A DNA stretch of 36,165 nt from Myxococcaceae bacterium (GTDB lineage Bacteria; Myxococcota; Myxococcia; Myxococcales; Myxococcaceae): positions 1 through 36,165 of the forward strand of contig JADGRA010000053.1 of NCBI GenBank assembly GCA_017881265.1, given 5' to 3'. The notes under the pieces are model-generated. The model did no database searches. It was given only the letters and a program-made list of their open reading frames with translations, and was not told the DNA's origin. The translations under genes and the position numbers were made by a program. Below are positions 29,134 through 33,667 of this stretch, in pieces; the stretch's first letter is position 1; every line of letters starts with the position of its first letter.

Positions 29134-30483
29134 GGTCAAGTCTCGATCTGTGTGTAGTTTAGCGGTGGCGTGGATCTCCCCGGCGGGTCAGGCTGCCCTC
29201 GCCTGATCGGCGTTGAGCTGAGACATGTCGAGATAGAAACGCTGGCTCCAGATCGCCGTCACCGCGATCGCGACCGCGGTGATGAGCCGCGGGGCGCTGG
29301 AGCGGTCGGGGAACGCGCCCACCGACTTCGTGCGGCGCTTGATTTCGGCGTGGAGCCGTTCGAGGCCGTTGGTGGTCTTGATCCGGCGCCAGTGGGCCCT
29401 GGGGAAAAGGTAGAACTGCGTGGCGGCTGCGAAGCCGCCGTCGAGGGTCGCCATCGCCTCGGGAAGCTCGTGACCGAGACCCACCCTGAGGGCCCAGGCG
29501 CTTCTTGGCGTCGCCGCCGGTGGGAGCCGCGAAGATGTTCGTGATCTCGCGCCCAAGGCGGCCACGGAGGCGCCAGGGAGTTCGAGCGAGGACATTTCGC
29601 TGGAGGTGCACGACGCAGCGCTGGAGCTTTGCCTCGGGCAGGTGGTGGCGGACGGCGGCTGCCAGACCGGCGTGCGCGTCTGCGATGACCAACTTCACCC
29701 CAGTCAGTCCGCGTTCCGTGAGCTGACGCAGCAACTCGGTCCAGCTGTCCTCCGATTCCTGCGCTCCGATGGTGATGCCCAGGAGGCGGCGCTTGCCGTC
29801 GGGACCGATGCCGTACGCGACGAGCGCAGCCACGTTCTCGACCTTCCTCGCCCAGCGGACGTCGAGGAATGTTCCGTCGAGGTAGAGGTACGTGATGGGC
29901 TCCACAATCGGTGCTCGGCGCAGCTCCTCGACCTGCTGCTCCAGGCGACGGGTGATCCGGTTCACCATGGACTTGCCGACCTCGTCGCCGGCCAGCGCTC
30001 CGGTGACCTTCCCCATCTTCCGGGTGGAAACACCGTTCACATAGGCGGCGACGATGGCGTGGTCGACCTCCTCCATCCGTCGCTTGTAACGACCGAGCAC
30101 GTTGGCGGCGGAGCCGTTCTCGCGCGTCCTCGGCACCTCGACATCGAGATAGCCCATCGACGTGATGAGCCCGCGCAGGTAGCTGCCGTTGCGGCGGTCC
30201 TTCCGGCCACCGATTCGAGCCCACCGGCTGGCGCCTACCATCCCGCGGATTTCCTCCTCGAGCAGGGTCTCCAGCGTCATCCGGATCGCTCCGAGGAACA
30301 CCTGGCGAAGATCTCCACGGACGTCTTCTTGGGACAAGCCTTAAAATCGGCAACGTCATCCACGGGGCAGCTCCTCGGCCTCCCCGCCAAGGGAGGGCCA
30401 TTCGGGTTTGGCTTCCCGAGGAGCTTCCCCGTCATTTCCGTCGACTGCGACTTCATCAACTACACACTCTTAGAGACACCACC
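29134..30483 (-). mobile_element. IS256-family insertion sequence
   Basis: A transposase gene of the IS256/Mutator type is bracketed by imperfect terminal inverted repeats. GGTCAAGTCTCG and GTGTGTAGTT at the left (29134-29159) match the complement of 30458-30483 at about 19 of 26 positions, including GTCTC and GTGTGTAGTT. The length of about 1.35 kb fits the family. No target duplication is evident at the ends I chose, so the exact tips are uncertain or the insertion is old. Confidence 0.7.
29188..30337 (-). pseudogene. IS256-family transposase, frameshifted
   Basis: The N-terminal two-thirds, from TTG 30337, holds the first two DDE residues (YLYLDGTFLDVRW and VIADAHAGL). It also has CVVHLQRNVLARTP, a family hallmark. 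The C-terminal third with the Glu (TTNGLERLHAEIKRR, then VGAFPDRSSAPRLI) lies in a different frame ending at 29188. The switch point is at CTGGGCCC near 29493-29496 after AKKRLG. Unshifted, the first frame continues as nonsense to 29159. IS256 transposases are normally made from one frame, so this copy is probably dead unless the base count is a sequence error. Confidence 0.85.
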
Positions 30484-31880: not shown

Positions 31881-32006
31881 GCGTGGCTACCTCCCCAGGG
31901 AAGAGTGGCGTTGCTGTGGTCTGGGGTCAGGGAAGTTGGCACCCATTGCGTGCGGCCGGTGCCAGGGGGCGTCGCGTTCCGCTCTTCCTCCCAGGAAACC
32001 GCCCTC

Positions 32007-32026
32007 TACCATCCACTTAGATGGTA
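32007..32026. promoter_or_regulatory. Palindromic operator candidate before the RHH regulator
   Basis: TACCATC (32007-32013) and GATGGTA (32020-32026) form a perfect 7-base inverted repeat with a 6-base spacer, ending 31 bases before GTG 32058. Ribbon-helix-helix proteins often bind such sites in front of their own gene, so autoregulation of the RHH and esterase operon is plausible, with possible effect on the divergent AI-2E gene. Confidence 0.5.
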
Positions 32027-32057
32027 TAGGGATGGCGGGACCAGCACGGAGGCGAAC

Positions 32058-32465
32058 GTGCCGAAGAGCAGACCGACGCTCCCCGAGACAGAGAAGCTCA
32101 CTATCAATCTGGGATTGGTCGACCTGGGGCAGATCGATCTCCTGGTGCAGGAAGGGTTCTATTCGAATCGGACCGATCTGATTCGCACCAGCATCCGCAA
32201 CCAGCTGGCGGTCCATGCAGACGTCGTGAAGCAGGCGGTCGCGCGCAACAGCCTGAGCTTGGGGATCCAGCGTTATGCGCGCGCCGAGCTGGAAGCGGTG
32301 CGAGCAGCGGGGCAGCGACTCCGGATTCAGGCGCTCGGTCTCGTGGTCATTGGCGAGGACGTGACGCCGGAGCTGGCAGTCGCGACGATCGAGTCCGTGG
32401 CCGTGCTGGGAGCATTGCATGCAAGCCCGGCGGTGAAGGCGGCGCTGTGGAAGAGAATCCAATGA
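32058..32465 (+). CDS. Ribbon-helix-helix (CopG/MetJ-Arc type) transcriptional regulator
   Basis: A 135-residue protein with an N-terminal ribbon-helix-helix. The strand EKLTINLGLVDL is followed by helices GQIDLLVQEGFYSNRTDLIR and SIRNQLAVHADVV, the usual DNA-binding dimer fold. The C-terminal 60 residues (LRIQALGLVVIGEDVTPELA) form a small extra domain of unknown role. GTG 32058 is supported by GGAGG five bases upstream; the frame is open for 67 codons before it, but these lack coding character. Its stop overlaps the esterase start (ATGA), so the two are coupled. It probably regulates that operon. Regulator-depolymerase pairs of this kind are known from proteobacteria. Confidence 0.82.
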   Translation: MPKSRPTLPETEKLTINLGLVDLGQIDLLVQEGFYSNRTDLIRTSIRNQLAVHADVVKQAVARNSLSLGIQRYARAELEAVRAAGQRLRIQALGLVVIGEDVTPELAVATIESVAVLGALHASPAVKAALWKRIQ

Positions 32466-33667
32466 TTTACAACCAGGATGGGAAAGGGCCGCCGAGCAGG
32501 GCAATGTTGGCTTCCATGCGAGAAGCGATCCGGATCTTGCGGACCGGCGGACCGGGGGAAGCGACGGCTGCGATTCAGCGGGCGCTGCAGGGAACAATGC
32601 CGACGGACGGCGCGGCAGCCGTCGAGCGGGTGAAGTTGCAGCTGTCGAGACCGGCGCGTGCCGAGGGATCACCGGCCGGTTCGCGACCGCCGTTCCGGGC
32701 ATCGGTGCCCGTGGATGCCTTCGTGCCCCGGACCACGTCCGCGCACTTCAACGCATCAAAGTTTGCGGCAAGGCACGAGCAGGGGCGGAAGGCCGACCTC
32801 CCGGCAGGCGAATTTCTCACAGGGTCATTTGCCAATCGCGCGGGCGCCCGCGACTACAAGCTGTACGTGCCGAGCGAATATCACGGGCAGCAGTTGCCGC
32901 TCGTCGTCATGTTGCACGGTTGCACGCAGACTCCGGATGATTTTGCCAGCGGTACGCGGATGAACGCGGCGGCCGAGCTGAAGCCGTGTTTCGTGCTCTA
33001 CCCGGCGCAGGCGCACCGGGCCAATGGAAGCCGTTGTTGGAACTGGTTCAAGAGCAGCCACCAGGAGCGCGACCGGGGAGAGCCGTCGATCATCGCGGAC
33101 ATGACGCGCGAGCTCATCGGCAAGTATGAGCTCGACCGTCGACGCGTGTACGTGGCCGGGCTTTCTTCGGGCGGCGCGATGGCCGCCGTCATGAGGACGA
33201 CCTATCCCGATCTCTATGCGGCGGTCGGGGTGCACTCCGGGCTGGCGTACGGCACCGCGCACGATCTTCCATCGGCGCTGGAGGCGATGCAGGGGCGTCC
33301 GCGCGCGACGGCGGCGGGGGCCGGACCCGAGGCGACACCGGTCATCGTGTTTCACGGCGACGGCGATACGACGGTGCATCCTCGCAATGGCCACGAAGTG
33401 CTCGCGCAGTGCCTGCCGGGAAGTGGAGCATCGGCGAGCGCACCGAGGACGGAAGTGCAGGGCGGGCAAGCGCCGGACGGGCTTCCGTTCACGCGCACGC
33501 TGTATCGAGACGACGCTGGGCGTGTCATCGCAGAGCATTGGGTCGTCCACGGCGGCGTGCACGGGTGGTCGGGCGGCAGTCGCGAGGGTTCATATGTCGA
33601 CCCCCACGGTCCGGACGCGACGCGCGAGATGCTGCGCTTCTTCTCGCTGTGGGCGCAGCCGGCGTAG
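32462..33667 (+). CDS. PHB depolymerase family esterase
   Basis: Alpha/beta hydrolase of the poly(3-hydroxybutyrate) depolymerase group, expected to cut polyester or other ester bonds. The oxyanion region is VVMLHGCTQTPDDFASGT. The nucleophile is Ser about 235 in GLSSGG, the Asp candidate is in FHGDGDTTVHP, and the His is in HGGVHGWSGG. The conserved CWNWF is present. The first 115 residues form a low-complexity leader with no signal peptide (MIYNQDGKG start), so an intracellular enzyme is more likely than a secreted one. ATG 32462 has GGAAGAG just upstream and overlaps the regulator stop. The substrate is uncertain. Confidence 0.88.
   Translation: MIYNQDGKGPPSRAMLASMREAIRILRTGGPGEATAAIQRALQGTMPTDGAAAVERVKLQLSRPARAEGSPAGSRPPFRASVPVDAFVPRTTSAHFNASKFAARHEQGRKADLPAGEFLTGSFANRAGARDYKLYVPSEYHGQQLPLVVMLHGCTQTPDDFASGTRMNAAAELKPCFVLYPAQAHRANGSRCWNWFKSSHQERDRGEPSIIADMTRELIGKYELDRRRVYVAGLSSGGAMAAVMRTTYPDLYAAVGVHSGLAYGTAHDLPSALEAMQGRPRATAAGAGPEATPVIVFHGDGDTTVHPRNGHEVLAQCLPGSGASASAPRTEVQGGQAPDGLPFTRTLYRDDAGRVIAEHWVVHGGVHGWSGGSREGSYVDPHGPDATREMLRFFSLWAQPA

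Follow-up and report, generated by a model that had tools for sequence, protein, structure and literature searches.

Does the inverted repeat that precedes an RHH regulator gene and an esterase gene in a Myxococcaceae genome turn this pair into a self-controlled unit, and is stored polyester what the enzyme breaks down? The window (the whole stretch of DNA analysed, 36,165 nucleotides) makes up contig C4 in a genome of 4.4 Mb and 81 contigs. Its repeat is a site conserved before this pair of genes in dozens of other bacteria, where it very probably forms part of a self-repressing switch for the breakdown of stored polyester.

The operator and the gene pair in the window

The repeat TACCATC-N6-GATGGTA is exact at 32007-32026, as the initial annotation had it. 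It has no second match in the window when two mismatches are allowed (mean for shuffled sequence, 0.02), and no second site in the host genome when one is allowed. Overlooked at that stage were a third half-site, GGATGG, which lies exactly 11 bp past the second; outer arms that, judged by eye, bring 11 of 12 positions into symmetry (CCCTCTACCATC and GATGGTATAGGG); and the internal structure of the esterase leader, described below. A 7+7 repeat by itself proves little, and it is the comparison across genomes that settles the site as the putative operator. Recognisable −35 and −10 elements were not found before the operator in the window, so the overlap of promoter and operator considered below is borrowed from relatives. 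The features of the locus are collected in Table 1.

Table 1. Coordinates of the operator, the gene pair and a nearby transposase in the window
Feature	Position	Strand	Basis
Mutator-family transposase ORF	29159-30337	minus	profile match
Operator: core half-sites 32007-32013 and 32020-32026, third 11-bp-phased half-site GGATGG 32030-32035	32003..32036	+	motif model match 32007-32036, E 5.9e-6
RHH gene ribosome-binding site, GGAGG	32048..32052	+	sequence
RHH_8 (PF17723) transcriptional regulator P0001, 135 aa, GTG start	32058..32465	+	Pfam profile
PHB-depolymerase-type esterase P0002 of 401 aa with e-dPHAscl catalytic domain type 1; first 4 bases shared with the end of the RHH gene	32462..33667	+	NCBIfam
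Predicted N-terminal helical hairpin of the esterase, residues 13-45	32498..32596	+	structure model, conservation
Predicted disordered linker, residues 49-111	32606..32794	+	pLDDT <50
Alpha/beta-hydrolase domain, catalytic S235, D302, H367	32795..33664	+	model, conservation, structural match

The strong ribosome site claimed for the RHH gene is present, with GGAGG ending five bases before the GTG start, as is the four-base overlap with the esterase gene, whose start and the RHH stop share the ATGA at 32462-32465. P0001 matches RHH_8 (PF17723) with 175.1 bits, against a gathering cut-off of 25.4, over profile positions 1-119 of 119, and this is its only Pfam match at E ≤1. In the AlphaFold model of the P0001 monomer, two helices are predicted in the N-terminal part, and the strand region has pLDDT values below 50 (residues 1-36). 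Residues 67-135 are predicted, mostly with confidence, to form a C-terminal beta/alpha domain, with pLDDT block means of 89-95 from residue 71. This domain contains near-invariant DVxPELA and VLGA motifs and is a candidate sensor or assembly domain. Its fold gave no informative match in Foldseek (best E 0.28) or VIA-align (best Z 3.4, over 63 residues at 2.8 Å), and a search of solved structures by sequence with the RHH protein returned chance-level matches only.

The pair had been described as lying among acquired DNA, which is borne out by its distribution and by the transposase, but not by base composition: G+C around the pair is unremarkable, at 0.60-0.69 over 30 to 35.8 kb of the window. 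The RHH gene occurs in two of 60 genomes, its own included. In the other carrier, a MAG labelled Myxococcaceae, a contig end cuts the locus; the RHH proteins are 95% identical over 97 residues and four half-sites can be seen by eye upstream of the gene. An esterase was extracted for 64 relatives; the nearest of these are labelled beta- and gammaproteobacteria, with identities of 78% for the RHH protein and 54% for the esterase. The pair was likely gained horizontally, judging from these comparisons. In the transposase ORF, profile part 292-379 is unmatched in frame and seems, by eye, to be continued in an overlapping minus-strand ORF at 29188-29595, which suggests a frameshift.

Conservation, phasing and reach of the operator

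A search for the same repeat before homologous pairs in other genomes had been proposed as a check; it was run, and the repeat was found. From at least 520 confirmed loci of RHH_8 relatives in a scan of species genomes, the best 80 were taken, mostly labelled alpha-, beta- and gammaproteobacteria; as these are the closest, the sample leans to near relatives. A motif fit, seeded from one relative and applied to about 250 bp upstream of each of 81 RHH_8 loci (the 80 relatives and the window), converged on TACCATCCATATGGATGGTATATGGATGgc, which is present upstream in all 81. The motif carries 33.5 bits of information, and ten shuffled sets gave 6.9-8.2. All 81 real scores (lowest 7.0) lie above those of all 78 downstream control stretches (largest 0.5). 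Seven of the 81 fitted sites are weak, with scores of 7-18 (L009, L051, L060, L063, L076, L077 and L078, mostly Bradyrhizobium).

As a motif fit scores its own training set, a separate model was run on held-out loci. This model, R1, was made from 55 of 60 distinct operators scoring above 29, a biased choice on account of which the held-out test matters. The held-out set comprised 22 loci, i.e., 20 RHH_8 genes over the cut-off, from other genomes and with the nearest training locus 70-80% identical, and two genes below the cut-off. Three loci were kept out of the set: L092, whose gene is that of L014; L096, which is one half of a gene whose remainder is L094; and L097, which scores below the cut-off. 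The model matched 18 of the 20, 17 of them with E <0.01. Over 72 kb it gave 39 matches, each immediately upstream of an RHH gene; the two below-cut-off loci run alongside gave no match. The two misses, L104 and L105, have no model match, yet in both a related palindrome is visible by eye at the operator position. L105 (G403:C1) encodes one of the most divergent held-out RHH_8 proteins (58% identity) and its palindrome has the arms ATACTCC/GGAGTAT; in this one case, protein and site may have changed together.

GATG occupies the second half-site in 73 loci. A further GATG follows at +11 bp in 52 of these, at +22 in 22 and at +33 in five, and CATC recurs upstream at −11 in ten and at −22 in six; the only other spacings reaching three loci are GATG at +19 and CATC at +23. 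Half-sites repeated every 11 bp are one helical turn apart and therefore on the same face of the DNA. Upstream, 62 of the 81 loci have TTGA[CAT] at some position from −50 to −20 relative to the operator (200 shuffles gave a mean of 6.8 and at most 14), and 43 have it exactly 27 bases before the operator; in a separate count, TAnnnT begins at −5 of the operator in 43. In about half of the loci, a putative sigma-70-like −10 box thus appears to be the start of the half-site array, and such an array, reaching from the −10 box across the transcription start, is laid out as a repressor site would be.

The genome-wide reach of the operator was assessed in 22 genomes or records, the window's genome among them, all chosen for holding RHH_8. 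The model matched 21, and the best match lies at an RHH_8 gene in every one; G071 contains no match at E ≤1. Matches with E 0.1-1 were treated as chance. At E ≤0.02, the single off-locus match in the 22 genomes or records is located inside an unrelated 419-codon ORF (G598:C76, E 0.013). As far as the scanned genomes show, control by RHH_8 would be local autoregulation with no regulon. A looser operator pattern was tried and discarded as uninformative, since its words are common: among the matches listed, it has many in each of 16 genomes, several-fold more than a reversed-pattern control in most of them. In one Bradyrhizobium (G068, the genome of L063, Bradyrhizobium niftali), three operator sites each precede an RHH_8 copy, with an esterase following two of these copies and the third at a contig end. 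That repeat, regulator and esterase make up a compact autoregulated unit, as the initial annotation held, is well supported by the conserved operator upstream of homologous pairs, and autoregulation of the operon by RHH_8 is strongly supported by the same comparison of sequences.

The esterase and its probable link to stored polyester

P0002 scores 325 bits against NF050058 (e-dPHAscl type 1; curated cut-off 150). Its best structural match in Foldseek is a PHB depolymerase, with feruloyl and acetylxylan esterases at weaker E-values. With the Lihuaxuella thermophila PHB depolymerase (PDB 8daj, 9byu) it shares the hydrolase domain, at 45% identity and a TM-score of 0.81 on target length; the two sequences match from residue 114 of P0002 onward, which leaves out the hairpin and linker. 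Under the rule used for extraction, 16 of the 81 loci have no esterase ORF, and these were excluded from the counts of leader, triad and distance. In the 65 remaining esterases, S235 and D302 are conserved in all and H367 in 63, and the window esterase has all three. We take these residues to be the Ser-Asp-His triad of the depolymerase family, which fits the lipase box GLSSGG.

The esterase had been said to lack a signal peptide and to carry a long leader. By a hydropathy measure, a hydrophobic N-terminal segment is absent from all 65 esterases (near the N-terminus, the largest 15-residue Kyte-Doolittle mean is 1.55, the median 0.70), in agreement with the former point. The leader is less plain than that description, as it consists of the conserved predicted hairpin and the disordered linker. 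Its conserved segment includes A22, A34 and Q39 (95% each) and L42 (94%), and in the model the hairpin on its disordered tether looks like a docking module.

The esterase gene lies directly downstream of RHH_8 in 78 of the 80 relatives' loci (the best 80 of at least 520); in the remaining two, a contig end cuts the locus short. Among the 20 held-out RHH_8 genes, L094 and L111 have no intact neighbouring esterase, and both RHH genes look broken or partial. L094 (G103:C25, 527-970 on the minus strand and 1282-1737) has kept its operator, with RHH_8 split over two frames and no esterase match in the 1.5 kb downstream, and is likely a remnant, to judge by its sequence; a divergent ORF resembling a phasin is located about 310 bp from its operator (Phasin_2, 23.4 bits, cut-off 24.9). 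Across 65 loci, the distance matrices of the RHH protein and the esterase correlate with r 0.79 (the largest of 1000 permutations reached 0.19), which shared ancestry alone could also produce. In a sample of 250 genomes of one order, an esterase at E ≤1e-30 is found in 44, of which 28 have no RHH_8 over the cut-off; a closer esterase (E ≤1e-70) is found in 23, and eight of these are likewise without RHH_8. As the esterase often occurs without RHH_8, the enzyme family would be wider than the pair and control by the regulator optional.

The host genome encodes PhaC and has two matches to PF07879 (PHB_acc_N), which we take to be the DNA-binding domain of PhaR; one of these PhaR-type matches is about 3 kb from PhaC on the same contig. 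In 274 genomes of one class, PhaC is present in all seven with RHH_8 over the cut-off and in 56 overall; in the order sample, it is present in all 16 with RHH_8 and in 168 overall. Weak PhaC matches (E >1e-10; 15 in the class set, two in the order set) were not counted. Together, the two samples contain 21 distinct genomes with RHH_8, and PhaC is found in 21 of 21. The probabilities of this co-occurrence by chance, 5e-5 for the class and 0.002 for the order, are uncorrected for genome size and phylogeny, and omit G062, the centre genome, which had been chosen for having RHH_8. Beside the pair, no PHA genes were detected by tblastn in the 80 loci within at most 4 kb on each side, a search of limited reach with single queries (one phasin-like ORF, two PhaR proteins and one PhaC N-domain). 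The earlier proposal of an esterase on internal granules divides into two parts: that the enzyme is internal rather than secreted agrees with its N-terminus, with the PhaC and PhaR-type genes of the host and with the presence of PhaC in the RHH_8 genomes, while its action on granules is plausible.

Proposed mechanism, alternatives and known systems

In the mechanism that we propose, RHH units would fill half-sites on one face of the DNA, i.e., the palindromic pair and the extra half-sites every 11 bp. In many relatives this array would extend from the −10 box over the transcription start, so that bound repressor would block RNA polymerase. Once repression is lifted, both proteins would be made together, possibly with translational coupling via the ATGA in the window; the enzyme would cut intracellular polyester, and fresh RHH protein would shut the promoter again. 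Our guess for the inducing signal is a product of PHB turnover or the granule surface, acting via the RHH C-terminal domain; sensing of granule state by the regulator, put forward in the initial annotation, is likewise a guess. We infer DNA binding by RHH_8, repression rather than activation, and PHB as the substrate. Taken as a whole, it is probable from the sequence comparisons that RHH_8 acts locally as the autorepressor of an operon of two genes, of which the second encodes a cytoplasmic PhaZd-type (PhaZ6/PhaZ7-like) PHB depolymerase.

Activation of the operon by the RHH protein would agree with the long, multi-site array of half-sites, and some RHH proteins, AmrZ for example, are described as activating as well as repressing. 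It appears improbable: in the 43 loci with TAnnnT five bases before the array, the half-sites go on downstream across the expected start, and an activator bound there would stand in the way of the polymerase. A toxin-antitoxin pair, with the RHH protein as antitoxin and the hydrolase as toxin, would share the gene order, the gene overlap seen in the window, the upstream RHH gene and the autoregulatory operator, and RHH relatives do occur on plasmids (100 of 72,556 plasmid records). This reading was rejected and has very little chance of being correct: no antitoxin family exceeds its cut-off (the ParD-family model gives 13.1 bits against 46.2) and PADLOC gave no match; the supposed toxin is an enzyme of 401 residues that retains the full depolymerase triad and is 45% identical to a solved PHB depolymerase; and of 44 genomes with the hydrolase, 28 have no RHH_8.

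A further question is whether the enzyme acts extracellularly or on another ester, its link to stored polyester being accidental. The NCBIfam name of the esterase family includes 'extracellular catalytic domain', the weaker Foldseek matches are to feruloyl and acetylxylan esterases, and the single phasin, PhaR and PhaC queries revealed no PHA gene beside the pair in 80 loci. Against this stand the lack of a hydrophobic N-terminal segment among 65 esterases, the presence of PhaC in all 21 sampled RHH_8 genomes and the PHB depolymerase as top structural match, which make this reading rather unlikely.

Autorepression through a phased array has precedents: Arc, MetJ, CopG and omega are RHH repressors with phased arrays of half-sites about one helical turn apart. 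The RHH_8 unit likewise has several half-sites about one turn apart, but differs in its half-site (GATGGTA), in its own C-terminal domain and in having an esterase as the controlled gene. PhaR, the granule-bound repressor of PHA metabolism, is another parallel: like the RHH_8 protein as proposed here, it is autoregulated and tied to PHA storage (review, PMC7204398). PhaR controls phaP and its own gene, whereas the RHH_8 operator is convincing only before RHH_8 genes, and P0001, for which RHH_8 is the only Pfam match at E ≤1, has no match to PF07879. A bolder reading makes RHH_8 the counterpart of PhaR on the degradation side, with a C-terminal domain that would read granules or a turnover product and free the depolymerase operon, and a hairpin that would dock the enzyme on the granule; we regard this as speculative and unlikely in full.

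On the enzyme side, PhaZ6 and PhaZ7 (PhaZd1 and PhaZd2) of Ralstonia eutropha H16 are placed in the e-dPHAscl catalytic domain type 1 superfamily, and PhaZ6 was first characterised as PhaZd, an intracellular PHB depolymerase (PMC3430594). P0002 is likened to them by this shared superfamily designation; its type 1 catalytic domain without an evident secretion signal agrees with the intracellular PhaZd type. No report of an RHH regulator for PhaZ6 or PhaZ7 of H16 was found. Published expression of the two gives a mixed picture. In a proteome of H16, H16_B2073 (PhaZ6) and H16_B2401 (PhaZ7) were undetected (PMC4870535), which fits a shut operon if both genes are controlled in this way, and an RNA-seq study of R. 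eutropha lists phaZ6 among the more expressed depolymerase genes. A 2024 study describes the regulators and promoters of R. eutropha phasins, depolymerases and hydrolases as unidentified except for phaP1; its pull-downs took phaP1, phaZ3 and phaZ5 and not phaZ6 or phaZ7 (PMC11332829). As the depolymerase regulators of R. eutropha are reported to be unidentified, the RHH_8 unit is worth an experiment.

Sznajder and Jendrossek reportedly found in 2014 that PhaZd1 and PhaZd2 are highly active with no detectable role in PHB mobilisation. A dedicated repressor with a defined operator, as seen across alpha-, beta- and gammaproteobacteria, suggests one possible reason, namely that repression may have kept the operon silent in those experiments. 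On the bolder reading, control by RHH_8 would, where PhaZd-type enzymes carry it, help to explain why they are very active in vitro and seemingly idle in vivo. Our literature search, which covered little of the subscription journals, found nothing joining an RHH/CopG regulator with a PHB depolymerase; RHH autorepressors are known, as are PhaZd-type enzymes, and neither their pairing nor its operator was found in print. In L108 (G517:C1), esterase genes are located on both sides of RHH_8, all on the same strand. A megaplasmid of Cupriavidus necator C39 carries RHH_8, the operator and the esterase together.
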